Shown here: piece by piece, positions 8,582 through 29,114 of the stretch
Numbering within the stretch: position 1 is the first letter of the stretch
How the letters are laid out: the number at the start of each line of letters is the position of its first letter
The notes under the pieces: generated by a model
What the model was told of the DNA's origin: nothing
Seen by the model: the letters and a program-made list of their open reading frames with translations, nothing else
Databases searched by the model: none
Assembly (NCBI GenBank): GCA_015660855.1
Contig: JACSDG010000042.1
Coordinates: 1-43,828 of the forward strand
Origin: Magnetococcales bacterium
GTDB taxonomy: Bacteria > Pseudomonadota > Magnetococcia > Magnetococcales > UBA8363
DNA length: 43,828 nt
Direction: 5' to 3'
Program-made: the position numbers and the translations under genes

Positions 8582-8603
8582 GAGATGGCGTTGCGGTTTG
8601 AAC

Positions 8604-8715: not shown

Positions 8716-8979
8716 TTAAAAGAATTGGATGATACCAAGCATCAGATCCGCGACATGCAACGGCGCAGCCGTCAGGCTCCCACCATCAATGAGCAGCACA
8801 GCCTGCAGGAAGAAATCGCCAAGATCAAGCGTAAGAAACGCACCTTACGAGAACGGATCTTTGACATCGAGGACGAGATTGCTGAAAAGCGCGACCGCCT
8901 CGTGGAATCGCTCGAAAAACGTATGCAACAAAAAACAACTGTCACGCCGGTGTTCATCATCCGGTGGAGCGTGATTTAA
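8716..8979 (+). pseudogene. C-terminal remnant of a large protein, probably a SNF2-type helicase
   Basis: About 87 codons remain in frame up to TAA 8977-8979. They encode a charged coiled coil (LKELDDTKHQIRDMQRRS, EEIAKIKRKKRTLRERIFDIEDEIAEKRDRLVESLEKRM) ending in TPVFIIRWSVI. This is how the C-terminus of SNF2/DEAD helicases encoded next to Mod-type methyltransferases looks, where the coiled coil is followed by a 'F.IRW.V' end. No start codon with a ribosome site is present, and the upstream sequence is the repeat unit, so the N-terminal part has been lost. The methyltransferase begins 17 bases after the stop. Base use resembles the island rather than the preceding helicase. The family is my inference; a small free-standing coiled-coil gene is the alternative. 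Confidence 0.6.
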
Positions 8980-8996
8980 GGAATCAGGAGATAACC

Positions 8997-11900
8997 ATGC
9001 CATCTGCCGAACAACTTCGCAGCCGCCTTTTGAAGAAGCTTTCCGAGCTGTTCCAGCTTGACCAGCCGGACCTCGATTTCGGCTTTTACCGCATCATGCA
9101 CGCCAAGGCGCAGGAAGTTCAGGACTTCATCGGCACCGACCTGCTGAAAATAGTGGCAGATGCCTTCGGCGATGTGGACGAGGCCCGCAAGGCCGAGCTG
9201 CAGGCCTCCTATGAGAAGGCCATTCAGACCGCCAAGGATTTCGGTGCTCCCAATCCGGAAGAGACTGAGCCGGTCAAAAAGGCCAAGGCCGCGCTGGATG
9301 CGGCCAAGGATACTTCCAGTGCCGAGGCCGATGTTTATGACCACCTGTATCGCTTCTTTGATCGCTACTACGATGACGGCGATTTCATCTCACGCCGCTA
9401 TTATACCCGGGAAACGTCCGGCAAGGCCGCGCCATTTGCCGTGCCTTACAACGGCGAAGAGGTGAAACTGCACTGGGCTAACGCCGACCAGTATTACATC
9501 AAGAGTGCCGAGTATTTTTCCAATTTTACCTTCGATTTACGGCAGGCAAAGGAAATTCGAGCAGAAGGCGGGCTGAATCTTGAGGATAAGGTTCCTCTTA
9601 ATGTCCATTTTCGCGTCGTCGAAGCCACCGAGGGCGAGCACGGCAATGTCAAGGCTTCCGAATCCAATAAGTGCTTCTTCATCCTGCATGCCGAAAATCC
9701 CCTGGCTTTGACCGAAACCAGCGAGCTGGTCGTCAATTTCGAGTACAGGCCCGACCCGGAAAAAACCGGCCAGGAAAACACTTGGCGGGACAAGCGCAAC
9801 GCCGAGGCTGTGGAGACCATACTGGAGCGTCTCCAGGCTATGGCGGCTGCCGATGGCGAACATGGAAAACAGATCGCGGAATATCTGCGTCTGTTCAAGG
9901 TTCGTGCTCCGACCGATAGCGACAAGAATCGCCCGGTACTGGCCAAATACGTAAACCAGTACACCGCCCGCAACACCATGGACTATTTTATTCATAAGGA
10001 TCTTGGTAGCTTCCTGCGTCGGGAACTGGACTTCTACATCAAGAACGAGGTTATGCGCCTTGATGACATTGAAAATGCAGAAGCTCCTGCGGTCGAAAGC
10101 TATCTGGCCAAGATCAAGGTGTTGCGCAAGATCGCGGGCAAGCTGATCAGCTTTTTGGCCCAGCTTGAGGATTTTCAGAAAAAGATCTGGCTCAAGAAGA
10201 AGTTTATTATTGAAACCAACTACTGCATCACCCTCGACCGGGTTCCCGATGAGTTCTACGCGGAAGTGGTAGCCAACGAGGCACAGTGTGAAGAATGGAT
10301 CAAGCTGTTCGCTATCGACGAGATCAAGGCCGACCTGAATGGTCCGGGATTTTCAAAGCCCTTGACGCTCAAGTTCCTCAAGGCCAACAACAAGCTGGTG
10401 CTGGATACCCGCTTTTTCGATGAAGGCTTTAAAGCACGACTGGTGGCGTCGATTGAAAACTTCGATGAGCAGTGCGATGGTCTGTTGATTCACTCGGAGA
10501 ATTTTCAGGCGTTGAATTTATTGAAGGAACGCTATTGCGAGCAAGTAAAATGTATATATATTGACCCACCGTATAACACTGAACAAGATCGACAACAAGG
10601 TAAATTTATATACAAAGACAGCTTTGAAAGCTCATCATGGCTTGCGCTAATGGCTGATCGTATCATCCACAGTACCTTAACAATGCGTGGTGATGCTACC
10701 TTCTTTTCAAGTATTGATCATAACGAAATTGGCGCAATCAAATACTTATTGGAGTCAATCTTTGGAAGGAATAACTTTGAAGGGCTTATTTCGTGGAGGA
10801 GAAGACACAATCAGCCAAACGACAAGACCAAAATGATTGGAATGGTTTCTGAATACATTATCAGTTATGCCAAAAATCAAGCTCTTTACAAGAAAGCTGG
10901 TGTGGGCAAGTTAGATCTCACAGGCGATTTTTCAAATCCAGACAATGATCCACGTGGCGATTGGGCGTCAAAACCATGGAAGGTCGGTTCAGACCAAAGT
11001 GGTTCTCGTTACAAGATAGAAATACCTACAGGTAGAATCCTGGACGAAGAGTGGATGGGGGAAGAATCAACGTATAGACAGCTACTTGCTGATGCAAGAA
11101 TATACTTCCCAAAGAACGGAGATGGAAATCCAAGAAAGAAATACTACAAATCTGAAAGAGAAGATGAAGGGCAATGTGCCACGAATTGGTGGCATCACGA
11201 ACAGTTTGGGCATAACCAAGGTGCCAATGATCTAATGACTTCACTAATTGGATCCAAAAATGTATTCAGCAATCCAAAACCTATTGAATTGATCCGTGGT
11301 ATCCTTCTCATTGCAAATTCCAGAAACCATATAGTTCTTGATTATTTCGCTGGATCAGGAACTACCGGCCAAGCGGTTATCAATCTGAATCGTGAGGACG
11401 GTGGTAAACGCAAATACATCCTTGTCGAAATGGGTGATTATTTCGACACCGTTCTTAAGCCCCGCATCGCCAAAGTGGTCTATTCCGAAAGTTGGAAAGA
11501 CGGCAAACCCACGGCTCGCCATACTGGCATTTCACACTGTTTCAAATATATCCGCCTGGAATCTTATGAGGATACGCTCAACAACCTGCGCCTCGACCAC
11601 AACCCCAAGCGCAAAAAGGCAGTAGCTGCCAATCCGGCACTCAGGGAAGACTACATGCTCCGCTACCTGCTGGATGTGGAGACACGGGGCAGTCAGTCGT
11701 TGCTCAATATCGACGCTTTTGCCGATCCGACCGCCTACACCCTGGATGTCAAGAAATCGGGTACGGACGAGTACGTCACCCGTGCGGTCGATCTGATCGA
11801 GACCTTCAATTACCTGATCAGTCTGCGCGTGATGCATTCATCTGTGCCGCAAACCTTTCAGGCGACCTTTAAGCGCATTACGGACCCGGAACTGCCAGAA

Positions 11901-12260
11901 GACCAGCACACCAAGCTGGTGGTGGATGGCCGAATCTTACAGGAGGAAAGCGGTCCGTGGTGGTTCCGAAAGGTCGAGGGCTGGGTGCCCAAGGACCCGG
12001 CCAATCCCAACAATGGCCAGAGGGAAAAAGTCCTGATCGTCTGGCGCAAGCTCACCGACGATATTGAGCAAGACAACCTGATGCTGGATGAATGGTTCCA
12101 GAAGAACCGTATCCGCACCCGCGATTTCGAGTTCGACACCATCTACGTGAATGGCAGCAACAATCTGCCCAATCTGAAGCTGGACGACGAAAATTGGAAG
12201 GTCCGCCTCATCGAAGAAGAGTTCATGAAGCGCATGTGGAATACGGAGGGTATGTCGTGA
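8997..12260 (+). CDS. Mod-type site-specific DNA methyltransferase (beta-class, adenine)
   Basis: This 1087-residue protein starts at ATG 8997 with AGGAGAT 8 bases upstream. The catalytic DPPY motif (IDPPYNT, D523) precedes the AdoMet-binding motif I (DYFAGSGTTGQAV, F784-T790). That order is typical of beta-class N6-adenine methyltransferases such as type III Mod. The region between them (about 530-780) should contain the target-recognition part. The long N-terminal part (1-500) opens with RSRLLKKLSELFQLDQPDLDFGFYRIM, which I associate with large Mod-like proteins of defence islands. It modifies host DNA so that the linked helicase/nuclease can recognise unmodified DNA (inference). The segment 10540-11390 is visibly AT-richer than both flanks. 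The stop overlaps the next start by 4 bases (GTGA). Confidence 0.9.
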   Translation: MPSAEQLRSRLLKKLSELFQLDQPDLDFGFYRIMHAKAQEVQDFIGTDLLKIVADAFGDVDEARKAELQASYEKAIQTAKDFGAPNPEETEPVKKAKAALDAAKDTSSAEADVYDHLYRFFDRYYDDGDFISRRYYTRETSGKAAPFAVPYNGEEVKLHWANADQYYIKSAEYFSNFTFDLRQAKEIRAEGGLNLEDKVPLNVHFRVVEATEGEHGNVKASESNKCFFILHAENPLALTETSELVVNFEYRPDPEKTGQENTWRDKRNAEAVETILERLQAMAAADGEHGKQIAEYLRLFKVRAPTDSDKNRPVLAKYVNQYTARNTMDYFIHKDLGSFLRRELDFYIKNEVMRLDDIENAEAPAVESYLAKIKVLRKIAGKLISFLAQLEDFQKKIWLKKKFIIETNYCITLDRVPDEFYAEVVANEAQCEEWIKLFAIDEIKADLNGPGFSKPLTLKFLKANNKLVLDTRFFDEGFKARLVASIENFDEQCDGLLIHSENFQALNLLKERYCEQVKCIYIDPPYNTEQDRQQGKFIYKDSFESSSWLALMADRIIHSTLTMRGDATFFSSIDHNEIGAIKYLLESIFGRNNFEGLISWRRRHNQPNDKTKMIGMVSEYIISYAKNQALYKKAGVGKLDLTGDFSNPDNDPRGDWASKPWKVGSDQSGSRYKIEIPTGRILDEEWMGEESTYRQLLADARIYFPKNGDGNPRKKYYKSEREDEGQCATNWWHHEQFGHNQGANDLMTSLIGSKNVFSNPKPIELIRGILLIANSRNHIVLDYFAGSGTTGQAVINLNREDGGKRKYILVEMGDYFDTVLKPRIAKVVYSESWKDGKPTARHTGISHCFKYIRLESYEDTLNNLRLDHNPKRKKAVAANPALREDYMLRYLLDVETRGSQSLLNIDAFADPTAYTLDVKKSGTDEYVTRAVDLIETFNYLISLRVMHSSVPQTFQATFKRITDPELPEDQHTKLVVDGRILQEESGPWWFRKVEGWVPKDPANPNNGQREKVLIVWRKLTDDIEQDNLMLDEWFQKNRIRTRDFEFDTIYVNGSNNLPNLKLDDENWKVRLIEEEFMKRMWNTEGMS

Positions 12261-13390
12261 AGGGAGCAATCAAGAAAATCAGCATAAGCGGTTGCAAGTC
12301 GATTCGAGAATTGAAGGAGTTTGAACTCAGGACCCTGAACATTATCATCGGATCTAATGGATCTGGAAAGAGTAATCTTGTGCAGGTGTTCCAGTTGCTC
12401 ATGGCGATGACACGGAAAAATCTCCAGAAATTCATTTTGGAAAATGGCGGTGCGGACAATTTTCTGCACAATGGCCCTAAGAACACGCCTGCTATAAAAA
12501 TAGAGTTTGAATTTGAGTCGCATAGCAGTTATGCGCAAGGATCAAATTTCTACCGTTTCGAGTTGACGCCTACCGTCGATGAAACATTTCTCGCCAGTGA
12601 AGAACAAAAATATGTAACAACCAACTGGCGTTCCTATGGCCCCCCTTCGCCTGAAAGTCGTCTGTACGATGAACGCGTTGAGAAATCTGCGAACGGCCAG
12701 TTTAATGGTGTCGGTCATTTTGTCTATGAGTCCATTGCGCACTGGATGGTCTACCACTTTCATGACACCAGCTCTACGGCTCCGATGCGCCGCTCGGAGA
12801 TTGTCGAAGATAATCAGGTTCTTCGGAACAATGGCGGCAATATTGCGCCCTTTCTGCTGAGACTGAAGAATGATCAATTTCACCGGTCCTATTATCAGGA
12901 GATTGTCAATGCCACTCGGCTAGTAATTCCATTCTTTGATGATTTTCGTCTGGACGTTCTCACGTATGGCGATGCCGAAAAAGTCAAACTCAGTTGGCAG
13001 CAAAAAGGTTCCGATTTCCCGATGCAGCCCTATCATCTCTCTGATGGTTCCATCCGGTTTATCTGTCTTGCTACGGCACTTCTGCAACCTTTTCCGCCTT
13101 CAGCCATTGTGATTGATGAGCCGGAATTAGGCTTGCACCCTGAGGCCATTGTCATCTTGGCGGAATTGATTCATGCCGCTGCCAAAAAGACGCAAATCCT
13201 GGTGGCGACACAATCGCCTTCTCTCCTCAATGAATTTGCCATTGAAGACATTGTTGTGGTGAACCGCAAGGAAGGACAATCCACCTTTGCAAGGTTAAAC
13301 CATGCTGACTATAAAGAATGGCTGGAAGAGTACTCTGTCGGAGAGTTATGGACCAAGAATGTGATCGATGGGGGAACCAGCCATGAGTGA
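12257..13390 (+). CDS. AAA family (RecF/OLD-like) ATPase
   Basis: This 377-residue ABC-type ATPase starts at GTG 12257, with GGAGGG 6 bases upstream, inside the methyltransferase stop (GTGA overlap). Walker A is G32SNGSGKS39 (IIIGSNGSGKSN). The signature-like segment is YHLSDGSIRF, Walker B is IVIDEPELGLHP with D287 and E288, and the switch region is VATQSPSLLNEF. This is the AAA_21/AAA_15 arrangement found in OLD-family, PARIS (AriA) and related anti-phage ATPases. There is no fused nuclease; the DUF4276 gene directly downstream (8-base overlap) is the likely partner. It probably acts as a sensor/regulator that controls that partner. A reading-frame extension upstream to 12092 lies in the methyltransferase gene and is rejected. 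Confidence 0.88.
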   Translation: MKGAIKKISISGCKSIRELKEFELRTLNIIIGSNGSGKSNLVQVFQLLMAMTRKNLQKFILENGGADNFLHNGPKNTPAIKIEFEFESHSSYAQGSNFYRFELTPTVDETFLASEEQKYVTTNWRSYGPPSPESRLYDERVEKSANGQFNGVGHFVYESIAHWMVYHFHDTSSTAPMRRSEIVEDNQVLRNNGGNIAPFLLRLKNDQFHRSYYQEIVNATRLVIPFFDDFRLDVLTYGDAEKVKLSWQQKGSDFPMQPYHLSDGSIRFICLATALLQPFPPSAIVIDEPELGLHPEAIVILAELIHAAAKKTQILVATQSPSLLNEFAIEDIVVVNRKEGQSTFARLNHADYKEWLEEYSVGELWTKNVIDGGTSHE

Positions 13391-13862
13391 TTTTGCTGAA
13401 GTCATTGTGCTGGTGGAAGGTCTGACCGAGCATCGATTCGTCAAACAACTTCTTGCACCATATATGGCAGACCGCGGCGTGTATTTGACGCCAATCATTC
13501 TGGATAAACCCGGTGAAAAAGGTGGTGATGTAAAATTTGCACGGGCCATAAATGACATTGAGAAGCATCTCAAACAACGGCGGGACACTTGGCTTACACT
13601 CCTTATCGATTACTACGGCATTAAACAGCATGTTGACGCGATTCTTGCGGAATGTAAGGAGCCAGAAAAGATTAACGACCATAGCACAACAGCACCTTCA
13701 AAAAGGCTGGAGGCACTTTCTGATCGTTTCAAAAAAACTTCTACCGGCCTAGCGATAGCCACGGAAATCGGCATTTCCAAAATGCGCTTCGCCTGCCCGC
13801 TGTTTGACGCTTGGCTGACAAAACTGGAATCACTTGTGGGGAGCAAAGATGGCGAAGCGTAA
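13383..13862 (+). CDS. DUF4276 family protein, possible Toprim-like effector
   Basis: This 159-residue protein starts at ATG 13383 (ATGAGTGA overlap with the ATPase stop; GGGGGA upstream). It matches DUF4276: VIVLVEGLTEHRFVKQLL at the N-terminus, LTLLIDYYGI in the middle, APSKRLEAL, then IATEIGISKMRFACPLFDAWL at the C-terminus. E12 in VEGLTE sits in a setting like the conserved glutamate of Toprim domains (OLD nucleases, DUF4435 of PARIS), and D76 in LIDYYG could be the following acidic site. The Toprim relation is my inference. DUF4276 genes are commonly paired with AAA ATPases, as here. The pair resembles a split OLD-type nuclease. Its 3' end overlaps the helicase start by 14 bases. Confidence 0.85.
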   Translation: MSDFAEVIVLVEGLTEHRFVKQLLAPYMADRGVYLTPIILDKPGEKGGDVKFARAINDIEKHLKQRRDTWLTLLIDYYGIKQHVDAILAECKEPEKINDHSTTAPSKRLEALSDRFKKTSTGLAIATEIGISKMRFACPLFDAWLTKLESLVGSKDGEA

Positions 13863-16800
13863 AATCAGAGGAAAAAGGCCGCATTCATTCAGAAATAAAC
13901 TACTGCTCAATCAGTGGCTGGTGAGCCTGTTCGGCATCGATCCGCTTGTCGAACACAAAGTCAATGGCAAAGTGGTTCGCCCCTTTCACAAATTGGCCGA
14001 TCCCATCCGCGATCCGCGTCTGGAAGGGTTGGACAAGGATAATCTGCATTTTTTCTACCACCATCTCGGCGATAGCCCGCTCTTTAGCTATGCCGATCCA
14101 ACGGCTGATTTCCCGGGCTTTCGCATCAGTCGGGATATGCTCTTGACCTACGAGCAAAACATCGTTCGTCATACCCAGGCAATCAATGAAAAGCGCCACC
14201 GCCCCATTGGGTGGAAATACTACCAATGGCTGACTCTGATCTTTGTTGAAATCTACCTGGACCGCTTTTTTGGCAATCGTGAAGGGATGCTCGCCGATCT
14301 CAATGCATTTGTTGAGCGTTTTAACCGCCACTGGGACGATTACGCCGATGTGCCGCCTTACAACGAGGATGACCTGAACAAGCTCTGCATGCAGAACGCC
14401 ACCGGCAGCGGCAAGACGCTGCTAATGCACGTCAACCTGCTGCAATACCGGCACTATGCCGCAAAGCATGGAAAGGATAAAGAACTCTCCCGTGTCATCC
14501 TGCTGACGCCAAACGAGCGGTTGTCCGAACAGCACGTTATGGAGTTATATGAAAGTGGTTTTTGGTCTGTTTCAAAACTGGATGTGAAAGGACAAGTGCA
14601 GTCGGCTTTCGGAAATATCGATGTCATTGAAATTACCAAACTCGGTGACAAAGAGGGACCGAACACCCTCGCCACGCGAAGCCTGGGCGATCAGAACCTG
14701 CTTCTGGTTGATGAAGGGCATCGCGGCATGAGCGGCAAAGAGGAAGGCGTCTGGTTCACCCGACGTTCAGACCTTTGCGCCAAGGGGTTCACCTTCGAGT
14801 ATTCGGCCACCTTCGAGCAGGCCGTTCAGGCCTCAGGCAATGCCGATTTTGAGAACAGCTACGCCAAGACGGTCGTTTTTGATTACTCCTACCGGTGGTT
14901 CTATGAGGACGGTTTCGGCAAGGATTATCAGATTCTGAACCTGCCAGGATCATTCAAAGAGACGCAGTCGATCTATATAACAGCCTGCCTGCTGAAGTTC
15001 TACCAGCAGCTCCGTATCTACGAGGAAAAGACGAAAGATTTCGAGCCGTTCCATCTGGAAAAGCCACTGTGGGTATTTGTTGGCAGCACGGTTTCTTCGG
15101 GCAAGATGAGCAAGGATGAACAGATCGTGGCTACGGACGTGGCACGCATCATCCAGTTTATCGCCGAATTCCTCGACAACCAGCAGGTGGCGATGCGGCG
15201 CATGCATGAGATCCTCACCGGCAAAGGCCAGGATACCGGCCTGTTGGACAAGGACGGAAACGACATTTTTGCCGGGGCCTTTACCTATCTGGCCCGGAGC
15301 ATGAATGGCGGCGAAACCGTTGAAGCCCTCTACCGGGATATTCTTTCCAGGCTGTTCAACCATGCCGCAGGCGGTCATTTATCACTGGATCGCATCAAGG
15401 GCGAATCCGGCGAAGTGGCCTTGCGTGTGGGCACGAGTGAAACGCCCTTCGGTCTGATCAATGTCGGTGATGCCAAGAGCCTGTGCGATCACGTGGCCGA
15501 AGTGGCGGCACAGAACGGTACACGGCTGACCGTGGAAGACAGTGACTTTACCGAGGCGATGTTCGCCTCCGTGAAGGATTCCACGTCACCGGTCAACCTG
15601 CTTATCGGCTCCAAGAAATTTGTTGAAGGCTGGGACTGCTGGCGCGTCAGCACCATGGGCTTGATGCATGTCGGGCGCTCGGAAGGCTCACAGATCATTC
15701 AGCTCTTCGGGCGCGGTGTCCGCTTGAAGGGTTACGAGTGGAGCCTCAAGCGCAGCGGCCATTCCTATGCGCCGCTCCGGCCGACCTTCATTGAGGAATT
15801 GGAAACCCTCAATGTGTTCGGCATCGAAGCCGACTTCATGGAGAAGTTCCGCGAGTTTCTCAAAGAGGAAGGCCTTCCCGGCAACGAGCGCCGCAAGATT
15901 ATTACCATCCCGCTGAATGTCACCTATGACTTCGGCAAGAAGCTCAAAATCCTCCGCCCTAAGCGGAAGGCCTCTGACGGCAAGGAATACGACTTCAAGA
16001 AGGATGCGGCGGTACCAACAGTCGGGGATATCCCGGACTACATGACGCACAACAAGGTTGTTGCCGACTGGTACCCGCGCATTCAGGCCATGCAGTCACG
16101 CGGTACATCCCTGGCAACCCAGAAGGACAAGGTGTCGTTACGTGAACAGCATCTGGCTCTGCTGGATTACGACACGCTCTTTTTTGATCTGGAGCGGTTT
16201 AAGCGCGAACGGAACTGGTACAACTTCAATATTACCAAGGATGGTATTCAACGTCTGATGAGGAACACGAACTGGTACACCCTCTACCTGCCAGAAACCC
16301 GCATGAACCCGGTAACCTTTGATGGCGTGCTCTTGTTGCAGCAGGTGGCGTCCGAGCTTCTGAAGCGGTACTGCGATCACTACTATAACTATCGCAAACG
16401 AGAGTACATAGAGCCGCGTCTTGAACTGCGCGACCTGACTCTGGATGATGACAACATCCCGCAGGAGGAGTGCTACCAACTCATCGTGGATGGCGATGAA
16501 GAACAGGTCATCCAGGGAATCCAGCAGATCAAGAAGGATTTGGAGCAGAAAAAGGATGATCTGCTGAAGGTTGGCGATCTGAACGCCTGCAATTTCGGCA
16601 AGCACCTGTTCCAGCCGCTTTTTCACGTCCGGCGCGGTGGGAAAATCACCATCCTGCCTGTCGCCCTCAACGAGAGCGAATATCAGTTTGTCACCGATCT
16701 GAAGACTTGGTGCGACGGCCACAAAGCCGCTCTGGAAAAGGATGGAATGGAACTTTTTCTGCTCAGAAACATGAGTCGAGGCAAAGGCGTGGGATTCTTC

Positions 16801-17130
16801 GAGGCTGGCAACTTCCATCCCGATTTCATTCTGTGGATGCTGATTGGCGGGAAACAGTACGTCACCTTCATCGAACCGCATGGTCTGTTGCACGAAGGCT
16901 CTGCCAGCGAGAAGGTTCTGTTCCACAAACGGATCAAGGATGTCGAGCAGCGATTGGAGGACCCAACCGTGATCCTCAACAGCTTCATCCTTTCTTGGAC
17001 GCGGTACCCGCAACTGAAATGGGACAGATCTCAGCACGATCTTGAGAAAATGCATGTGCTGTTCATGACTGACGATCGGGATAGATACATCGACAAGCTG
17101 TTCGCCAAGTCGAGGGGAATAGTCAGATGA
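13849..17130 (+). CDS. Res-type DEAD/DEAH (DEGH) helicase with C-terminal nuclease-like motif
   Basis: This 1093-residue superfamily 2 helicase resembles the Res subunit of type III restriction systems. ATG 13849 is preceded by GGGGAGC. Motifs: ATGSGKT (K189), DEGH at 288-291, FEYSATFEQA (motif III), and KFVEGWDCWRVSTMGLMHVGRSEGSQIIQLFGRGVR (motifs V-VI). Near the C-terminus, FHPDFILWM (P991, D992) is followed by TFIEPHG (E1009, H1011). This has the layout of a PD-(D/E)XK nuclease, but with histidine where lysine is usual. It is expected to translocate on and cut unmodified DNA together with the Mod-like protein (inference). It is the last gene of the four-gene operon, and the DNA turns into repeats 20 bases after its stop. 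Confidence 0.9.
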   Translation: MAKRKIRGKRPHSFRNKLLLNQWLVSLFGIDPLVEHKVNGKVVRPFHKLADPIRDPRLEGLDKDNLHFFYHHLGDSPLFSYADPTADFPGFRISRDMLLTYEQNIVRHTQAINEKRHRPIGWKYYQWLTLIFVEIYLDRFFGNREGMLADLNAFVERFNRHWDDYADVPPYNEDDLNKLCMQNATGSGKTLLMHVNLLQYRHYAAKHGKDKELSRVILLTPNERLSEQHVMELYESGFWSVSKLDVKGQVQSAFGNIDVIEITKLGDKEGPNTLATRSLGDQNLLLVDEGHRGMSGKEEGVWFTRRSDLCAKGFTFEYSATFEQAVQASGNADFENSYAKTVVFDYSYRWFYEDGFGKDYQILNLPGSFKETQSIYITACLLKFYQQLRIYEEKTKDFEPFHLEKPLWVFVGSTVSSGKMSKDEQIVATDVARIIQFIAEFLDNQQVAMRRMHEILTGKGQDTGLLDKDGNDIFAGAFTYLARSMNGGETVEALYRDILSRLFNHAAGGHLSLDRIKGESGEVALRVGTSETPFGLINVGDAKSLCDHVAEVAAQNGTRLTVEDSDFTEAMFASVKDSTSPVNLLIGSKKFVEGWDCWRVSTMGLMHVGRSEGSQIIQLFGRGVRLKGYEWSLKRSGHSYAPLRPTFIEELETLNVFGIEADFMEKFREFLKEEGLPGNERRKIITIPLNVTYDFGKKLKILRPKRKASDGKEYDFKKDAAVPTVGDIPDYMTHNKVVADWYPRIQAMQSRGTSLATQKDKVSLREQHLALLDYDTLFFDLERFKRERNWYNFNITKDGIQRLMRNTNWYTLYLPETRMNPVTFDGVLLLQQVASELLKRYCDHYYNYRKREYIEPRLELRDLTLDDDNIPQEECYQLIVDGDEEQVIQGIQQIKKDLEQKKDDLLKVGDLNACNFGKHLFQPLFHVRRGGKITILPVALNESEYQFVTDLKTWCDGHKAALEKDGMELFLLRNMSRGKGVGFFEAGNFHPDFILWMLIGGKQYVTFIEPHGLLHEGSASEKVLFHKRIKDVEQRLEDPTVILNSFILSWTRYPQLKWDRSQHDLEKMHVLFMTDDRDRYIDKLFAKSRGIVR

Positions 17131-20749: not shown

Positions 20750-21859
20750 TTATTCCGCATGTGTTTTTTTGGTCAGGGCGGGAAGCCGGATGGTCAAGAC
20801 GGTCCCCTCGGTTTCATCCGTGTGCATGGTGATGTCGCCGCCGAACAATCGGGCAATCAAACGGGCCGAATAAGTGCCTATCCCCGAACCCTTGCGCTTG
20901 CCAAAGGTGACAAACTTGTCGAAAAAACGGTCCCGTATCGCTTCGGGCACCACCCCCGGATTGGTCAATTTCAATACCAGCCAATCTTTCTCACACCGTA
21001 AACTCAAGGTGACCTTGCCCCCCTTCGGGGTTGCCTCCAAGGCGTTGTCCAGCAAATTGGCCAGCATCGAATAGCCCAGCAATTCCTCCGCCATGATCTG
21101 GCTCGATGCCATTTCCGCATCCGGCATGATCCGGACAATCTGAACCTGACGTCTTCTGGCGGTAATGTGCCGCTCCCCGATCACCCGATCCATCAGGCGG
21201 GATAAGTCGATGCCGGTCGGATGATACGCATAAACCCCCTGCTCAATTCGATACAAATCCAGGGAACCATTGATCATTTCCAACATTTGCAACCCGGCTT
21301 TTTCCATCTGTTCGAGAAAAATTTGGCTGGGACTCATTTTTTCATGCAACATCAATTGAATAAAGCCCAATATAACCGCCAAGGGACTCTTTAGATCATG
21401 CCGCGTAATGCTTTCCAGTTCATCCCGCAATTTTTGTGACTCAAGCAATTGCCAATTTTGATTTTCCAGTTGGCGATGATTTTTGACGATCTCCAAATGG
21501 GTTTTCACCCGAGCACGCACCACCGGCAGGTTGAACGGTTTGGTTAAATAATCGGCGGCCCCCAACTCCAAACCTGCCACCTCGTGCATCGGATCAACCA
21601 GCGATGTCAGAAAGATCACCGGAATCAAGGCGGTCTCGGGATCCCCCTTCAGGTGCCGGCAAACCTCAAAACCATCCATCCCCGGCATCATGATGTCCAA
21701 CAGGATAATATCGGGTTGCGGATCCTCTCTGGCACTGGCCAACGCCGACAGCCCATCCTTGGCGGTATGGATGAGGTATTCATTTTCCAAGGCATGACGC
21801 AGCAGCCGAATGTTGTCGGGCTGGTCGTCAACGATCAACAGTCGGGGCCGGGTTTCCAT
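20750..21859 (-). CDS. Response-regulator/histidine-kinase fusion (REC-HisKA-HATPase)
   Basis: This 369-residue cytoplasmic protein starts at ATG 21859, which overlaps the upstream TGA (TGATG coupling). The receiver domain (7-125) has D11/D12 (LLIVDDQPDN), phosphoacceptor D55 (ILLDIMMPGMDG) and K107 (LTKPFN). The dimerisation segment has the phospho-acceptor His at about H154 (ITRHDLKSPLAVILG). The ATPase domain has the N box (MLANLLDNALEA) and GKRKGSGIGTYSARLIA; the usual D-x-G of the G1 box reads TNPGVVP. An N-terminal receiver on a kinase suggests it is itself controlled by phosphotransfer. It has no membrane part; the co-operonic membrane CACHE-PAS protein, which lacks a kinase, is the obvious input partner. 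Confidence 0.92.
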   Translation of the reverse strand: METRPRLLIVDDQPDNIRLLRHALENEYLIHTAKDGLSALASAREDPQPDIILLDIMMPGMDGFEVCRHLKGDPETALIPVIFLTSLVDPMHEVAGLELGAADYLTKPFNLPVVRARVKTHLEIVKNHRQLENQNWQLLESQKLRDELESITRHDLKSPLAVILGFIQLMLHEKMSPSQIFLEQMEKAGLQMLEMINGSLDLYRIEQGVYAYHPTGIDLSRLMDRVIGERHITARRRQVQIVRIMPDAEMASSQIMAEELLGYSMLANLLDNALEATPKGGKVTLSLRCEKDWLVLKLTNPGVVPEAIRDRFFDKFVTFGKRKGSGIGTYSARLIARLFGGDITMHTDETEGTVLTIRLPALTKKTHAE

Positions 21860-24552
21860 CAATCCGAAATTTCAGGTTGCCGTCCGCCAGCAAGCTTTTT
21901 GATCAAACCACGGAATGTTGCCTTTGCTTGACCCAATTCTTTCTCCTGTAATTGACGCACCAGCATTTCACCATCTTTGGCCCCGGGACCAGAGGTCAAT
22001 TCCGCAAGTATGTCTTGCGCCAAGGCCAGAGCCTGGTTGACATCGACCTCCATTGCCTGTCCCAAAGCCTCCAGTCGCCCCCCCAGGTCGAGCACTTTTT
22101 CACCCCCCTCCTGCCATTTTTTCAAGGCCTCAATCCATACATCCAACGCCTGGCAAAACGGGACAAAATAATGGGCAATCGTTTCTTTTTTTCGCGGAGT
22201 ACACGTCAATACCCCTTCCAGAGCCACAGCCTGATCGTGCAGGCTCAAGGCCCCAAGATCAAACAATATCTCACGTATCCCCTGAATCTCCTTGCTGATT
22301 CGATCATAGCGCGATTTGGTCAACATATCCCGCAAACGCTGGGCCATATCCTGATGCTTTTCATGGAAACCAATCAAGAGATGGCGATACATCTGTTCAT
22401 TTCCACCCGTCTGTTCCAACCCCGCCGCAACGTCAAAACCCGGAACCACTGGCCATGGGAGCGCAGATGTTTTCTCGGATATCACCGATGTCTCGGTCGC
22501 AACCGGTAGCACTGCACTTTGTGTTGCAATGATTGCGGAGGGGGGCGTGGTGACTTCCTCGGGTACGTCCAAAATATCCGGCATCGTTGCATGCGGTGGC
22601 TCCAAAGGAGCCGAAACATCGTCCGCTGCCACCGCGACGGTTTCGCCCGGAGGTTCACAGGCGGGCACCGCAACCACCAACGCCAGGGGGGAGGGAATTT
22701 TTTCGGGGAGTGCTGCATGGATGGGGGGCGCGTCGATTGTTTCCTCTCTGGTTTCCAGTAACGCCACTTCATGAATTGTTGTGGCCTCGGATTGTTTTTC
22801 CGCAGAAATGTCCCACACGGCGCATACCATCCGCAGTGGAGTCCCGTCATTCTTCCACTGACTGATTCGGCCACGTTCCAGCACCCACAACCAGTGGCCA
22901 TCCTGGTGGCGTATCCGATGTTCGGATTCATAAACCATCGTCACCCCCGACAAATGGCGTTCGACCAACCCCTCCACTTCACTCCAATCTCCCGGGTGGA
23001 CCCTCCGCCGCCAAGCCTCCCGGTCGATTTCCACCGAGTCGCCATCGATCCCGAGCATCTCCCACCAGCGCGAATTGAAAACCATCTCCCCCGAGATCAA
23101 ATCCCATTCCCAAAGGCCTTCCTCCATCACATGAAACATGGATTGGAGCAGGGTATCGTATTCCAGGAGTCGCTGTTCCATCCCTGGCCCCTCTTGTTCG
23201 GCCAGTTGGTAGACTCCAAGGACGCCGATGATGTCTCCCGCCCCATTTTTGACCGGGATCCGGTCAAAATAAATTTTCAGGTCGATTCCCGATCTCGTCC
23301 GGATCATCCCCTCCCGTGGTGTCATTGGGCGGTTTTCCTCCATGACCGTTTGTTCAAATTCTAAAAATTGTGCCACCATTTCCTGCCAAGGCATGTCGGT
23401 TTCGCGTAGATTTTCCACATCCGCAACATTGGCCAAACCGGCATCCTGGGCAAAAGCCCGATTGCAGCCACGATAAACGCCCTCGCGATCTTTCCAGAAG
23501 AGACGGTCCGCAACGGCGTCGATGACATACCTCAGCCATTGTCGGGAATTTTCGATTTCCTGATTCCGGTCGCCGAGTCGATTCTCCAGATCTTCCGGCG
23601 GGGATTCCGTCGCCACGTTTTCTGTTTTTACCGGTTCCCCCCCCCCCTTTCTGACGGCTGCGGGAGCCGTGGCGAGACCGCGAACTCGACCCGCACGACC
23701 GGTTCCAACCGTGTTGAGTATTGTTTCCCCAGCCCTTGAAACCGCACGAGACATTAAAAACCATACCGCCAGCGTAATGCCAACGCCCATAAGACAAACA
23801 AAAGCGACAGATTTGAGGATGATCGTTCCAATTCGGAGTTCCTCCACTGCGGCATCCACGCTGACCCCCAAGCGATACAGCATGGGTGTTTGGGACGATG
23901 CCGCCAAAGATTCCCACTTGTCGCCTTTCGCCACCCGGCCAACATCCAGTTTTTGGTTTCCCACAACCATGCGTCGTTGCCCCCCTTCGGAGATCAGACG
24001 ATTCATTATCGCTCCCACATCAAATCCGGAAACGATGACCCCTTGAATGTTATTGAAATAATGAACCGGGGCCGCCACCAGCACCATTTTTTTGGTCAGA
24101 TCCAGATGGCTGATCGCTTTTCCGGTTGCCAGGGCTTCTTTAAGATTGGGTAATTCCTTGTATTGGGGCAGGGGATCCCCATGGGCGAAAACCGAGGCCC
24201 CCACAGGATCGGTCAGTACAAAGGAACGTATGCGCATCCCCTGGGAGAAACGACCGAGCAATTCCGGCAGGGTTCCCTGGAGCATGTCGGGATTGGCCAG
24301 GGCATTGATCAATACCGGATTGACCGCCAACCGCTCCACCTCTTTTTCCATGAAAGCCAGTTCACGGTCCAACACCAACATTTCCTGGTTCATGAGTTGG
24401 CGGACAGACATGCGATTTTCTTGTTCCAGGATGGCCAGCAACAGCCAGGCCGTCGCCAATGTGCCAAGGAGGATGGGAAGCAACACCATCGCCGTGGTTT
24501 TCCAGCCTAACGAGAATCGAATAGCTTGCGGGTTGACGAGTCGTGTTTTCAT
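21859..24552 (-). CDS. Membrane sensor: CACHE, two PAS domains, degenerate Hpt; no kinase
   Basis: This is an 897-residue inner-membrane protein. Transmembrane segment 1 is near residues 18-42 (MVLLPILLGTLATAWLLLAI). A periplasmic double-CACHE-like region follows (about 45-245, FVLTDPVGASVFAHG, VAAPVHYFNNIQGVIVSGFDV), then transmembrane segment 2 (about 250-270, SVAFVCLMGVGITLAVWFL). PAS 1 begins at WLRYVIDAVADRLFWKDREG and PAS 2 at MEEGLWEWDLISGEMVFNSRWWEMLG, with a PAC end (GHWLWVLERGRISQW). After a Pro/Ala-rich linker, the C-terminus (GLEQTGGNEQMYRHLLIGFHEKH ... LFDLGALSLHDQAVALEG) looks like an Hpt domain, but where Hpt has A-H-x-L-K-G this reads I-Q-G-I-R-E. The phosphorylatable His is missing. 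It is coupled to the kinase gene downstream. Confidence 0.85.
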   Translation of the reverse strand: MKTRLVNPQAIRFSLGWKTTAMVLLPILLGTLATAWLLLAILEQENRMSVRQLMNQEMLVLDRELAFMEKEVERLAVNPVLINALANPDMLQGTLPELLGRFSQGMRIRSFVLTDPVGASVFAHGDPLPQYKELPNLKEALATGKAISHLDLTKKMVLVAAPVHYFNNIQGVIVSGFDVGAIMNRLISEGGQRRMVVGNQKLDVGRVAKGDKWESLAASSQTPMLYRLGVSVDAAVEELRIGTIILKSVAFVCLMGVGITLAVWFLMSRAVSRAGETILNTVGTGRAGRVRGLATAPAAVRKGGGEPVKTENVATESPPEDLENRLGDRNQEIENSRQWLRYVIDAVADRLFWKDREGVYRGCNRAFAQDAGLANVADVENLRETDMPWQEMVAQFLEFEQTVMEENRPMTPREGMIRTRSGIDLKIYFDRIPVKNGAGDIIGVLGVYQLAEQEGPGMEQRLLEYDTLLQSMFHVMEEGLWEWDLISGEMVFNSRWWEMLGIDGDSVEIDREAWRRRVHPGDWSEVEGLVERHLSGVTMVYESEHRIRHQDGHWLWVLERGRISQWKNDGTPLRMVCAVWDISAEKQSEATTIHEVALLETREETIDAPPIHAALPEKIPSPLALVVAVPACEPPGETVAVAADDVSAPLEPPHATMPDILDVPEEVTTPPSAIIATQSAVLPVATETSVISEKTSALPWPVVPGFDVAAGLEQTGGNEQMYRHLLIGFHEKHQDMAQRLRDMLTKSRYDRISKEIQGIREILFDLGALSLHDQAVALEGVLTCTPRKKETIAHYFVPFCQALDVWIEALKKWQEGGEKVLDLGGRLEALGQAMEVDVNQALALAQDILAELTSGPGAKDGEMLVRQLQEKELGQAKATFRGLIKKLAGGRQPEISD

Positions 24553-24604: not shown

Positions 24605-26764
24605 TCATTGTCGGGATTTCCTGCGGGGGACAAGCATCCCCTCGGCGTTATGGTGTACCATGACCAGATCGGAGGGGGTAAGTCCTTCATGGCGCATGGG
24701 GGAAAAGGGCCAGGCATAGTTTTTGATGGCCCCGGAATGAGCTTCCAGCCGTTCCATGGCTGCCTCCAGGCCGCTGAAGCCTGGATCCGGTGCCCGTTTT
24801 AACGCCTGGGCCAGAAAAAATACCAGGTCGTAAGCTTGTGCCGTAGCCGAGGGGTCGGGGACATGTTCGGCTACCGGATCATCGAAAAGCGTAAGATAGC
24901 GTTTGCGCAAAGTCTCTCCTGCCGGTGTTCGGTCCCAGTGAAGATCCAGCGAAAAGGTTTGCAGGAAAGTATAGTCCGGGGCGTTGGCATCCTCCAGCGT
25001 TTTGCGTTTTTCCCCATCATCGCCATGATAGGAAAACAGTTGCCCCTTGAAAGCCATGGATTTCATGGCAGCGCGAATTTGTCGCGTTTCTTCGATGCCG
25101 GCGACCAGAAAGATATCGGTGATTTCCGCCAGTTGCATTTGGCGTAAGGGATCCAGGAAAACTTTTTGTCCCAGGTTGAACCAGACCACCATGGGTTTTT
25201 CCCTGCCCAGGTCACGGAGTTGCCGGGTGATGGTGGTTCGTGCGCTGCGGCCAAAGCTGGAGTTTTCCAACATCAGGGCGATTTTGCCGTGGGTGCGTGC
25301 GAGTTCGTCGATCAGCACCAAGTTACCCTGGTACTCATTGGCAGCCAGCCGAAAGACATGCCTGCTATCCGCGCCATCGGCCTGACCGGTTTTCATCCAA
25401 TCCACCGCACGGGCAAACGGGACCAGGACCAACATTTTTTGGTTTTTGGCCACAGCGATCTGATCGGCGACGACGGCGTCACTGCCGCCCGCGACCACCG
25501 CGACCGCCTCCCATTGTTGTCCCAGGCGCATGATATTGGCCACCCCCAGGGCCACCGATCCACGATTGTCGGTGGTGATCACTTTTAATGGTTTACCCAG
25601 GATGCCGCCATTGCCATTGATCTCGTCGATGGCCAGTTCGACTCCGCGTTTGATGGCAAGCCCCGTGCGCATGGCCTCGGTGGAAAAATCGGCGTCTACC
25701 CCAATGATCCAGGCATTTCCGTCGCCGGAGCGTTCCATTTCCATCTCCTCGATGCGTCCCATGAGTCCCGCTCCCAAGACTTCTGCGTAGCCCAGAGCTA
25801 GGTGGCGGGCCTTGTTTGTCCAAACATTGCGGGTGGCTGTGGTGAGGGTTTGCGTGGGGATTCCAGATTCCTCCAGGGTTTGTTGCATTCGTTGCTGCTG
25901 TTGCTCGCTTTTACGCCGCGACCATTGTGTGATCTCGTGGGCGGAAGCTTTGATGATTTCGAGGGCATCGGTAGGCACGGAGGGGTATCCTTGCCACCCC
26001 ATGGCCAAAACCGCCCCCTGCCAAGCATGATGGCTCATGATGACCTGATGGGATTTTTTTTCCAGGGAATCGATCACTGTTTTTGTCAGCAGGGTTTCCC
26101 AGGCATCCGCCCCAGGAGTGGGAATGGTTTCGCCCATGGTTCCCCATTGGCCATGGGTATGAATCATCCCACTGCCGGAAAACATTTTGGCGGAAAATCC
26201 TCCGGGCACTACGGTAAACTGCATTTTTTTCAAATCGTCCGGACTTTCCACTTTGCGGTTGGTGATGAGTTGGCGAAACCCCTCTTCCCAGAAGGAGATT
26301 CCCACCAGATCCAGGGTATGTATTTGTTGCAGCAGGCGCATGCCCGAATCGCCATCGATGGCTTGATGGAGTGCCTTTGGCGCAGAAAAATAAAAGGGAA
26401 AGTCGATGATTTTGAAGGTGGGGAGGCGGTTTCCGAGCATGGAAACGGAAAGTACGACAAGGTCGAGTTTTCCTTGTTGCGCCAGGGCGATTAGGTCATC
26501 CTGGTCGGAGTTGGCCGTATTCGGGACCAGGGTGATTTCTATCTGGCCATGGCTGCGAAGTTTGACTTCCTGGGCAAAATGTTCCACCGCAGCTCGCAGC
26601 GGTCCATCCGGCTGTGCCTGGTGTCCCAGGCGCAGCCGAAGAATTTTTTCGTTTTGGACAACCGTATGCCCGGTACCCGATACCAGATTTTTAGCCAGGA
26701 AACCTGAAACGACCAGGCAGCAGAGCATCAGGGTACCCACGATCCAGGCTTGAACGGGTTTCAT
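24605..26764 (-). CDS. Fused TRAP (DctP)-type and LivJ-type periplasmic binding protein
   Basis: This 719-residue protein has an N-terminal hydrophobic segment (residues 7-25, WIVGTLMLCCLVVSGFLA) that anchors or exports it. Residues about 40-330 match DctP-type binding proteins of TRAP transporters (AAVEHFAQEVKLRSHGQIEI, FKIIDFPFYFSAPKALHQAI, WEEGFRQLITNRKVESPDDLKKM). Residues about 350-700 match branched-chain amino-acid/LivJ-type type I binding proteins (GLAIKRGVELAIDEINGNGG, GKPLKVITTDNRG, GKIALMLENSSFGRSARTTI). Each half alone is the size of a full binding protein. No TRAP or ABC permease gene is near, and the next two genes are sensory, so it is probably a ligand receptor feeding the CACHE-PAS protein. 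ATG 26764 has GGGGGA upstream. Confidence 0.88.
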   Translation of the reverse strand: MKPVQAWIVGTLMLCCLVVSGFLAKNLVSGTGHTVVQNEKILRLRLGHQAQPDGPLRAAVEHFAQEVKLRSHGQIEITLVPNTANSDQDDLIALAQQGKLDLVVLSVSMLGNRLPTFKIIDFPFYFSAPKALHQAIDGDSGMRLLQQIHTLDLVGISFWEEGFRQLITNRKVESPDDLKKMQFTVVPGGFSAKMFSGSGMIHTHGQWGTMGETIPTPGADAWETLLTKTVIDSLEKKSHQVIMSHHAWQGAVLAMGWQGYPSVPTDALEIIKASAHEITQWSRRKSEQQQQRMQQTLEESGIPTQTLTTATRNVWTNKARHLALGYAEVLGAGLMGRIEEMEMERSGDGNAWIIGVDADFSTEAMRTGLAIKRGVELAIDEINGNGGILGKPLKVITTDNRGSVALGVANIMRLGQQWEAVAVVAGGSDAVVADQIAVAKNQKMLVLVPFARAVDWMKTGQADGADSRHVFRLAANEYQGNLVLIDELARTHGKIALMLENSSFGRSARTTITRQLRDLGREKPMVVWFNLGQKVFLDPLRQMQLAEITDIFLVAGIEETRQIRAAMKSMAFKGQLFSYHGDDGEKRKTLEDANAPDYTFLQTFSLDLHWDRTPAGETLRKRYLTLFDDPVAEHVPDPSATAQAYDLVFFLAQALKRAPDPGFSGLEAAMERLEAHSGAIKNYAWPFSPMRHEGLTPSDLVMVHHNAEGMLVPRRKSRQ

Positions 26765-26791: not shown

Positions 26792-27823
26792 TTACACTTG
26801 GCGGTGGACCAATCGGTGCATCAAAATCAAGACCAGCGTGAATAAAATCATGGCACTTGCCTGATGTGCTGAAGCCAAAGGAACGGGCACCCGCAGCAGC
26901 AGGGTGGCAATTCCGAGACAAATTTCAACATGGGCCATGAAAACCATTGCGGTACCCAGGGTTTGGGTTTTTCCCCGGGGCAGTTGCAATTTCAGCATGA
27001 GCCAGAAAAGGATGGAGCCGGAAAAAACGGTCAATGTAAGTGCCCGATGATTCCATTGCACCGTAGGGATATGTTCAAAAAAGGCCTGATAAACCGGTTG
27101 CTGATCCATATATTCCGTCGGAATCCAGCGTCCATCCATCAGGGGATAGGAGTTGAAGGCCAAACCTGCGTTTGCCCCTGCCATTGCCCCACCCGACAGG
27201 ATGGTCAGAAAGATCAATGATCCCAGGAGTATGGCTGGAACGACAAGTTTTTGAAAGGATTCGTGGTCATCGCCGGTTTTTGGGTTGAGTTTGGAGAGGG
27301 CCAGCCACAGGATGGCCGCATAGATGGTGACAGCCAACCCCAGATGCAGCGTCAGTCGATAGGGGCTGATACGTGGTGCGTCCACCAATCCGCTTTGGAC
27401 CAGGAACATGCCGATGTTTCCCTGAAGGATTCCCAACAAAAAAATTCCCATGAACGCCATGGCCAACCGTCCACGAATCTGTTTTTGCAGCATAAAATAG
27501 AGCATGGGTAATAAAAACACCACACCCATGACACGGCCCAGGAGGCGATGGGTGTATTCAAGCCAGAAAATGGACTTGAACCCTTCAAGATTTATGTCGT
27601 AGTTGATGATTTTGAATTCGGGCGATTGCCGATAGCGGGCAAAGAATTCTTCCCATTCCGCAAGGTTCATCGGCGGCAGCCAGTCCAAGGCGGGATTCCA
27701 AAGGATGATTGACAGGCCCGAATCGGTCAGGCGGGTGAGTCCTCCAACGAGGATCATGGAGAAAATCATGGCGCAGCATGTCAGCAGCCAAAGGGCAATT
27801 TTTTTGTCGTTTTGATCTTTCAT
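26792..27823 (-). CDS. ctaA: Heme A synthase CtaA (COX15-like)
   Basis: This 343-residue integral membrane enzyme converts heme O to heme A for aa3-type cytochrome oxidase. ATG 27823 follows GAGAGGTAAG; an upstream TTG in frame is rejected. About eight membrane segments are visible, starting with ALWLLTCCAMIFSMILVGGL. Conserved blocks: VGGLTRLTDSGLSI, FWLEYTHRLLGR, LTLHLGLA, WNHRALTLTV and ASAHQASA, each with the expected heme-ligand histidine. Length fits the alphaproteobacterial/mitochondrial type, with ALDWLPPMNLAEWEEFF and YDINLEGFKSIFW between helices 1 and 2. It lies 27 bases before the binding-protein fusion gene on the same strand, so they may share a transcript, though no functional link is apparent. 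Confidence 0.95.
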   Translation of the reverse strand: MKDQNDKKIALWLLTCCAMIFSMILVGGLTRLTDSGLSIILWNPALDWLPPMNLAEWEEFFARYRQSPEFKIINYDINLEGFKSIFWLEYTHRLLGRVMGVVFLLPMLYFMLQKQIRGRLAMAFMGIFLLGILQGNIGMFLVQSGLVDAPRISPYRLTLHLGLAVTIYAAILWLALSKLNPKTGDDHESFQKLVVPAILLGSLIFLTILSGGAMAGANAGLAFNSYPLMDGRWIPTEYMDQQPVYQAFFEHIPTVQWNHRALTLTVFSGSILFWLMLKLQLPRGKTQTLGTAMVFMAHVEICLGIATLLLRVPVPLASAHQASAMILFTLVLILMHRLVHRQV

Positions 27824-28502
27824 CTTACCTCTCCCCCCCCATGGATCCGCCAAGCCGGGCGTTTGCCGCTTGTGCGCACCCCGGTAGGAGCCGTTTTTTT
27901 ACATATAATTGATTTTGCAATGAAAATATTTATTTTTTGTCGTCGTTTAAGTATAACATACCCCAGGCGTTGGCCTGTTATGGTTCGGCTTTTATCCGGG
28001 GTATATTTTCTCCCTTTTTTGTTCGGGCCAATGCCCATCGGCAGACTATATCCCAGTCCTGGTCGATTCCGCCTTCTTTTTCGGAGTGGTTTTTTTTGCG
28101 CCCCATTTTTTTTCGCAGCCGTGCGTGGCCCGTCCCCTTGCCTATATCATGGCTATCATATTCAGAACGCTGCGCAAAGGACAAGATGGGAGCCACCTGG
28201 GGAGGCAAGTTTCCAAGTTTATTTTTCCAAATCCGGGGACAGTATGTCCATTTTTCCATCGACAGAGGAAATCCGGTCCAGGGAATCCGCGTGAATTTCG
28301 GGGACACCCGCGAATTTCGGGGACACCCGACTAAATTGTTCGATATGAATTGTTTTGGGCAATTTAGTCGGGTGTCCCCAGAATTGCCAGATTTTGGTGT
28401 CTCCAGGTCTCATCAGAGCGAAAGTTGAAAAAAATAAGTTCCGCCTCCCACGCAAACCGGGTATCCTCTGATCGACAATGCCGTGAACAGGAGACATCGT
28501 TT
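27824..28502. other. Intergenic accessory region without a supportable gene
   Basis: About 680 bases lie between the divergent ctaA and coiled-coil genes. The open frames here have no ribosome site or recognisable protein. The left part (27895-28010) is AT-rich and may carry the ctaA promoter. From 28230 the DNA holds second-family repeats: ATCCGGGGACAGTATGTCCA at 28231, a doubled AATTTCGGGGACACCCG at 28294 and 28313, and a 19-bp inverted repeat. Confidence 0.5.
28319..28379. repeat. 19-bp perfect inverted repeat, GGGGACACCCGACTAAATT family
   Basis: GGGGACACCCGACTAAATT at 28319-28337 is exactly complementary to 28361-28379, with a 23-base spacer. An extra direct half-copy (AATTTCGGGGACACCCG) lies immediately to the left. 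Related copies occur at 29161-29243 and 29946-30037. No transposase gene is in the window. Confidence 0.85.
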
Positions 28503-29114
28503 ATGTCGCAGACTGTGACCTTTGATGACGTTTGGAAAATGTTTCAGGAGACTGACCGCAAGTTTCAGGAGACTGACCGCAAGTTTCAGGAGACTGACCG
28601 CGAAATCCAGAAAACAGGCCAACAGATCAAGGAAGTTTCGGTCCAGATGTGGGAGACGGATCGTAAAGTCAAAGAGGTTTCTACACAAATCGGTCGATTG
28701 GGGGGGCGATTGGGTGAATTTGTTGAGGGGTTGGTTGCTCCTGCATGCAAAACCCTTTTTGCTCAACGAGGTATCCCAGTTCACAAAGTCAGCCGGCGGA
28801 TAGAGGCGGATTTGCCAGGTGATCGGCATATGGAGATTGACCTGTTCGTTGTCAATACCGACTCTGTGTCGCTGGTAGAGGTAAAAAGTAAATTAACGGT
28901 AGAAGATGTGCGTGAACACACGGTACGCATGTCCGAGTTCAAGGATTTTTTTCCAGAATACGCTGACAAGAAGGCTATTGGCGCGGTCGCGGGTATGGTG
29001 ATTGAGGAAAACGTTGTCCGTTTTGCCATCAGGAATGGCTTGTTCGTCATGGTGCAGGTGGGCGATTCGGTGCGTTTGGCCAATGACGAGGCTTTCGTAC
29101 CTCGAATGTGGTAA
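28503..29114 (+). CDS. Coiled-coil protein with PD-(D/E)XK-like domain (DUF3782-like)
   Basis: This 203-residue protein starts at ATG 28503 with GGAG upstream. Residues 8-65 form a coiled coil that includes three copies of FQETDRK/E. The C-terminal part (80-203) has a nuclease-like core: MEIDLFVVNTDSVSLVEVKSK, in which D (EIDLFV) and E-V-K fit the PD-(D/E)XK pattern, followed by EHTVRMSEFKDFFPEYADKKAIGAVAGMVI. Proteins of this type (DUF3782 and relatives) occur in multiple copies in some bacteria, often near repeats and toxin-antitoxin genes, with no proven role. A nuclease or DNA-associated function is an inference. It lies between copies of the GGGGACACCCG repeat and may be part of a mobile patch. 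Confidence 0.75.
   Translation: MSQTVTFDDVWKMFQETDRKFQETDRKFQETDREIQKTGQQIKEVSVQMWETDRKVKEVSTQIGRLGGRLGEFVEGLVAPACKTLFAQRGIPVHKVSRRIEADLPGDRHMEIDLFVVNTDSVSLVEVKSKLTVEDVREHTVRMSEFKDFFPEYADKKAIGAVAGMVIEENVVRFAIRNGLFVMVQVGDSVRLANDEAFVPRMW
28542..28604 (+). repeat. Three tandem 21-base repeats inside the coiled-coil gene
   Basis: Copies at 28542-28562, 28563-28583 and 28584-28604 encode FQETDRK, FQETDRK and FQETDRE. The first two are identical and the third differs only at its last codon (GAA for AAG). The 21-base unit is three heptads' worth of one coiled-coil turn, so copy-number change would lengthen the coil without a frameshift. Confidence 0.95.

Follow-up and report, generated by a model that had tools for sequence, protein, structure and literature searches.

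A stretch of DNA of 43,828 nucleotides from a Magnetococcales bacterium (hereinafter the window) contains a gene in which two unrelated solute-binding protein (SBP) modules, one of the DctP (TRAP) type and the other of the LivJ type, are joined in a single chain. The preliminary description of the window presented the product as an exported receptor that reads two ligands of different classes and reports to a membrane PAS protein, with two sensory genes following and no permease gene nearby. The locus raises the questions of whether the two modules truly belong to one gene, whether the protein is involved in sensing or in uptake, and whether it reads one ligand or two.

The fusion is genuine. 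The open reading frame comprises 719 codons without interruption, with the match to PF03480 followed by that to PF13458 (Table 1), and the orthologs from six genomes of the same genus, with 48-56% identity, are full length and free of stops. A full-length paralog (29% identity) is encoded on another contig of the window's genome and, within the genus, a canonical second copy of the module is found in loci L034, L036, L038, L040, L044, L046 and L047; this copy consists of a fusion, with approximately 29% identity to that in the window, and a full hybrid kinase, often with a REC-kinase. Because the fusion homologs are full length both within the genus and among many distant sequences, a cryptic stop, a frameshift or an assembly join of two genes, which would have undone the original claim, can be excluded. 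AlphaFold2, with 27 homologs, yielded one confident two-module model (pLDDT 85.6, pTM 0.85), and Foldseek matched the first half to TRAP SBPs (for example, 4p47 with TMt 0.84; best value about 0.85; E about 1e-20) and the second half to the LivJ-type proteins 4q6w and 4gnr (TMt 0.81).

Table 1. Coordinates of the fusion gene, its parts and the adjacent genes in the window
Feature	Coordinates	Strand	Evidence or remark
DctP-LivJ fusion, probable receptor subunit, 719 aa	24605..26764	-	ORF, Pfam, orthologs, AlphaFold2
N-terminal hydrophobic helix, residues 2-28, probably uncleaved membrane anchor	26681..26761	-	AF2; motif count
DctP (TRAP solute-binding) module, residues 47-322	25799..26626	-	PF03480 5.6e-39; Foldseek
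Codon of T184, at the Arg kept in all canonical fusions (L049 R200)	26213..26215	-	alignment
Codon of T224, at the Asn of the QENP motif (L049 N240)	26093..26095	-	alignment
Inter-module helix, residues 332-346	25727..25771	-	AlphaFold2 model
LivJ-type (Peripla_BP_6) module, residues 354-674	24743..25705	-	PF13458 2e-26; Foldseek
Membrane cache-PAS-PAS protein with Hpt-like C-terminus, 897 aa	21859..24552	-	Pfam, profile comparison, model
Periplasmic cache-like sensor, residues 79-236, between two predicted TM helices	23845..24318	-	dCache_1 in orthologs; model
Two cytoplasmic PAS domains, residues 346-448 and 491-578	22819..23517	-	Pfam
Degenerate Hpt domain, residues 698-815, without phospho-accepting His	22108..22461	-	hhalign
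REC-HisKA-HATPase kinase, 370 aa; 4-nt overlap with previous gene	20750..21862	-	Pfam; motifs
ctaA (COX15-CtaA, heme A synthase)	26792..27853	-	ends 27 nt before fusion, same strand

The ctaA gene is also located directly upstream of the fusion in two orthologous loci (L035 and L039); co-transcription with the fusion is possible, and ctaA is probably not part of the system. Elsewhere in the window, a type III restriction-modification-like island (8964-17130, forward strand) includes, in a row, matches to MTase_III (3.6e-197), DUF4276/HEC-01B (5e-51) and REase_III (3e-174), and is preceded by a UvrD-like helicase gene (5120-8581), with the local GC content dipping to 0.47. The ORF at 28425-29114 encodes three copies of the short repeated peptide KFQETDR.

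The N-terminus of the fusion contains a hydrophobic helix. Because this region resembles an uncleaved anchor, the protein is probably tethered to the membrane, which refines its characterization as an exported protein. By crude motif counts, an AxA motif is present in 2 of the 46 fusions vs 23 of the 53 standalone TRAP proteins, and a lipobox in 4 of the 46 vs 25 of the 53. These counts suggest that the N-terminal helix of the fusions remains uncleaved and anchors the protein, unlike the usual, diffusible SBP of Gram-negative bacteria.

The domain search proposed in the preliminary description recovered the DctP-LivJ architecture from several phyla besides the window's order. The family was identified by searching the genome collection with an alignment of the canonical fusions; the contig search of the same collection with the window's protein alone produced no match because the window's clade is diverged (its branches in the trees of the two halves amount to 2.19 and 1.64 changes per site). 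Full-length fusions were detected in Thiomicrorhabdus, Amphritea, Marinobacterium, Azoarcus, Dechloromonas denitrificans, Rhodoferax, Burkholderiaceae, Methylobacter and Chromatiales, and further in Magnetococcales, Campylobacterales (including Sulfurimonas and Helicobacteraceae), Nitrospirae, Desulfobulbaceae and Desulfuromonadales. Beyond the window's order, full-length homologs occur in about 20 lineages that belong to Pseudomonadota, Campylobacterota, Nitrospirota and Thermodesulfobacteriota. Thus, the word "unusual" is a fair description of the protein, although it is no one-off but a member of a family with a rare, ancient design that is scattered over several bacterial phyla.

In the tree of the DctP halves, a 100/99 branch separates the 46 fusions, together with the DctP-only protein of locus L101, from 52 standalone TRAP proteins, which fits a single origin of the fusion. 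The tree of the LivJ halves does not contradict a single origin but is poorly resolved, with few standalone sequences as an outgroup and many forks left open; the case for one fusion event therefore rests on the DctP tree. The L101 receptor (7416-12189), which is nested among the fusions and followed by the same type of hybrid kinase, apparently lost the LivJ half, whereas L065 and L066 encode standalone LivJ-type proteins that are close to the second half of the fusion and precede cache kinases. Given that both LivJ-only and DctP-only forms are found before cache kinases, the receptor is modular. A fusion with a shortened LivJ half was also observed (L063:7924-9612, 562 aa), in which the Peripla_BP_6 match covers the first part only and after which a cache kinase is still encoded.

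The two sensory genes downstream of the fusion are real, encoding a cache-PAS-PAS protein and a REC-HisKA-HATPase protein, and the pairing with a signaling gene extends to all loci of the family that were examined with downstream sequence. Within the window's order, a cache signaling gene is the next gene on the same strand in 32 of the 32 examined loci with enough downstream sequence; the contig-end fragments L064, L067 and L068 were left out of this set, and the downstream kinases located behind antisense ORFs in the GC-rich loci L050, L051 and L057-L061 were identified by tblastn. Outside the order, the signaling gene is next on the same strand in all 18 loci with downstream sequence, with gaps of -35 to +35 nt and many 4-nt overlaps; 11 of these genes encode kinases and 7 encode cache-GGDEF-EAL proteins (L073, L075, L078, L082, L083, L084 and L096). 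The hybrid kinases combine dCache, PAS, HisKA, HATPase, REC and Hpt domains in various arrangements; the dCache matches are mostly below the curated cut-off of Pfam, and Pfam detected none in the kinases of L089 and L092. As to whether the fusion always precedes CACHE-PAS and REC-kinase genes, a signaling gene comes next in every locus examined with downstream sequence, and the outputs vary between hybrid kinases and GGDEF-EAL proteins. One locus (L077:2284-5862) additionally encodes a BvgS-like kinase with two SBP_bac_3 domains, two genes upstream of the fusion locus. The window's fusion shares the defining features of the family, DctP and Peripla_BP_6 in one chain with a cache signaling gene next, and its locus has the layout of an SBP-receptor pair, in which an SBP gene adjoins that of a membrane sensor whose sensing domain is extracytoplasmic. 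Activation of receptors by SBPs is established for the SBP-kinase class, which has been reviewed, but neighboring genes do not always encode partners: location of an SBP gene beside a kinase gene is no proof of interaction, and no binding was found for two such systems of Pseudomonas aeruginosa (PMC11113362).

For the fusion family, a receptor for two ligands is plausible: an organic acid would bind to the DctP module, an amino acid or an aromatic acid would bind to the LivJ module, and the receptor would report the combination. All canonical fusions in the alignment retain R200, N240 and either Q or E at position 238 (L049 numbering), along with the remainder of the TRAP signature, conservation is higher in DctP than in LivJ for 465 of the 465 canonical pairs, and CdgH provides an example of two SBP domains with different amino acid preferences in one receptor (PMC5431781). 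The LivJ-only receptors beside cache kinases and the DctP-only L101 imply, however, that one module can suffice, and the case is weaker for the window's protein than for its relatives. In all 7 members of the window's genus-level clade, the Arg, Asn and Gln are lost, with T, S or G in place of R200, T in place of N240 and W at position 238; in the window's fusion, T184 and T224 occupy the sites of the TRAP ligand-site Arg and Asn. By motif and sequence alignment, the lost Arg appears to be the equivalent of R147 of SiaP. The order of conservation is reversed as well, DctP being the more conserved half in 1 and the less conserved half in 20 of the 21 pairs within the clade. A second clade, family f7 (L056, L058, L059, L062 and L022), also has changed DctP signature residues, with DctP the more conserved half in 0 of 10 pairs and the kinase intact where checked (L056). 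Because the three residues are lost and the conservation order is reversed, the two-ligand reading is unproven for the window's clade; for this particular protein, the claim of the preliminary description finds no support in the sequence. Altogether, integration of two ligands is possible albeit somewhat doubtful. Simple decay of the DctP half is made less credible by its omega of 0.15 in the closest pair, compared to 0.20 for the LivJ half, such that both halves are under purifying selection; because of this constraint, the DctP half seems to be re-specialized rather than dead and may have acquired a new ligand instead of losing all binding.

The adjacent product, described at the outset as a membrane PAS protein, is a membrane cache-PAS protein but also more than a PAS sensor. 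The dCache_1 domain was matched in 4 of the 7 orthologs, and the cache-like region is colinear with the dCache region of the hybrid kinases; the PAS domains match PAS_4 (6.8e-4, below the Pfam cut-off) and PAS_3 (8e-16). Pfam detected no HisKA, HATPase, REC, GGDEF or EAL domain in any of the 7 membrane proteins of the window's clade, whereas in the canonical relatives the output enzyme is part of the membrane protein. When profiles were compared with the paralogous hybrid kinases, both ends of the membrane protein proved colinear with them, the cache-PAS end with E of 6.5e-39 and the Hpt end with E of 7.9e-9, whereas the intervening HisKA, HATPase and two receivers are missing. When isolated, the Hpt-like domain aligned with the Hpt domain of the paralogs with an hhalign probability of 97.8 and E of 7e-13, compared to E of 0.02-0.7 for the controls (HisKA, HATPase, REC and PAS), although Pfam hmmscan at a loose cut-off did not detect this remnant. 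The phospho-accepting His, invariant in 15 paralogs, is absent in 7 of the 7 orthologs, notwithstanding the profile homology. The structure model of the membrane protein has a low pTM of 0.35, and its Foldseek matches were mostly to PAS chains, with none for the C-terminal bundle. The profile alignments identify the membrane protein as the remnant of a hybrid kinase, from which HisKA, HATPase and the two receivers were lost while an Hpt-like domain persisted, minus its histidine.

The third gene was correctly recognized as a REC-kinase, with the REC Asp, HisKA His and N-box motifs present. It is conserved downstream in 7 of the 7 loci of the clade (73-79% identity; 1.5 kb away in G006), and in the genus's canonical paralogous loci, homologs with 39-40% identity are encoded after the hybrid kinase. 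The simplest history is one in which the three-gene module was duplicated, the second gene was stripped of its kinase core, and the third gene was relied on instead. That the locus in the window is a copy of the canonical three-gene module that is decaying and no longer functional, as the loss of the kinase core, the Hpt histidine and the DctP signature and the long branches might suggest, is very unlikely given that seven genomes keep all three genes with no stops in the fusion, and considering the identity of the REC-kinases and the omega of 0.15-0.20 in the closest pair.

As initially noted, there is no permease gene near the fusion in the window. DctM (PF06808) was not detected in the window's genome (97.8% complete), G007 (99%) or G011 (100%), so that the fusion lacks a DctQ/DctM permease partner; LivHM permeases are encoded in the window's genome on other contigs only, and the DctM or LivHM matches in the other genomes of the order (20 searched) are on other contigs as well or, in G014, about 200 kb away. 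Permease partners in related genomes, which would have argued against a receptor, are almost never found near the fusion: a tblastn search with four permease loci (DctM and LivHM) against 958 kb around 61 fusion loci yielded one weak match, a TRAP DctM located 3.8 kb upstream of the Marinobacterium fusion (L096) behind a gene on the opposite strand, and with 46 DctM matches in that genome, chance proximity is plausible. An orphan transport SBP is rejected given the permease-free neighborhoods and the lack of detectable DctM in the window's genome. It is most improbable that the fusion merely links two uptake proteins and feeds a distant TRAP or Liv permease: both folds belong to families of transport SBPs (PF03480 and PF13458), one fusion has a TRAP permease at 3.8 kb and LivHM is present elsewhere in the genome, but the three genomes without DctM, the permease-free neighborhoods, the constant pairing with signaling genes and the apparent membrane anchor all speak against such a role.

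Because a signaling gene is next wherever downstream sequence was examined, permeases are almost never near and no DctM was detected in the window's genome, the interpretation of the fusion as a receptor, as opposed to a transporter subunit, that reports to the adjacent membrane cache-PAS protein is well supported. Taken as a whole, it appears likely that the fusion serves not in transport but in ligand sensing, as the periplasmic subunit of a receptor made up of several proteins. Under the mechanism that we propose, the fusion is probably anchored in the inner membrane through the uncleaved helix at its N-terminus, and the ligand would close one clamshell module, most likely the LivJ-type one in the window's fusion, with the DctP-type half either re-specialized or serving as a scaffold and docking surface. 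The membrane protein encoded by the next gene would receive this change by contact with its cache domain and relay it, via its transmembrane helices and PAS domains, into the cytoplasm. Among most relatives, kinase or GGDEF-EAL domains of that same membrane protein would provide the output; in the lineage of the window, the separate REC-HisKA-HATPase protein probably carries the signal, and the simplest option suggested by gene linkage and domain logic is that its receiver docks on the His-less Hpt-like domain. A more sweeping proposal, tentative and on the whole rather unlikely, is that of an undescribed receptor family, in which two unrelated SBP folds were fused once into a membrane-anchored, two-input gate to interchangeable cache transducers, either hybrid kinases or GGDEF-EAL enzymes, and, in the window's lineage, the His-less Hpt of a pseudo-hybrid-kinase recruits a separate REC-kinase by the receiver of the latter, with docking instead of phosphotransfer.

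No description of a DctP-LivJ fusion as a receptor subunit was found in the open-access literature searched. The family, defined by sequence, appears to represent an SBP taken from transport and dedicated to signaling, with both kinase and c-di-GMP outputs on the same type of receptor. What each module contributes could be teased apart with the natural variants of the family (LivJ-only, DctP-only, both, and both with a diverged DctP). The pseudo-Hpt partner, in turn, makes it possible to test whether a degenerate phosphorelay domain has become a docking platform. For annotation, DctP or LivJ need not mean uptake: the window's genome encodes DctP domains and no detectable TRAP permease.

The halves of the fusion share folds and sequence families with the transport SBPs, TRAP DctP and ABC LivJ, but differ from these in the absence of a permease partner, the apparent anchor, the signaling neighbors and, in the window's clade, the loss of the DctP signature. 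In LuxP-LuxQ and TorT-TorS, a separate SBP activates a hybrid histidine kinase that is encoded next to it, as would be the case for the canonical kinase members of the family; however, the SBP in these systems is a single diffusible protein of another family, and the kinase is located within the membrane sensor, from which it was lost in the window's protein. The proposed path from SBP closure through contact with the cache domain and the transmembrane signal to the kinase output would, by analogy, follow the logic of LuxPQ, TorTS and NspS-MbaA. The latter, from Vibrio cholerae and Sinorhizobium meliloti, consists of a periplasmic SBP and a separate GGDEF-EAL membrane transducer (PMC8967002, PMC9993111) and thus resembles the fusions of Campylobacterota and Thiomicrorhabdus, where the SBP would likewise act via a separate GGDEF-EAL membrane protein; unlike the window's system, with its REC-kinase output, NspS is a single SBP. 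In BvgS and CdgH, one receptor carries SBP domains from the same family in tandem (PMC4352136, PMC5431781); similar to the fusion, these receptors have two Venus-flytrap modules per sensing unit, which in CdgH bind different amino acids; however, those modules are covalently joined to the output, whereas the fusion combines two unrelated families in a separate protein.
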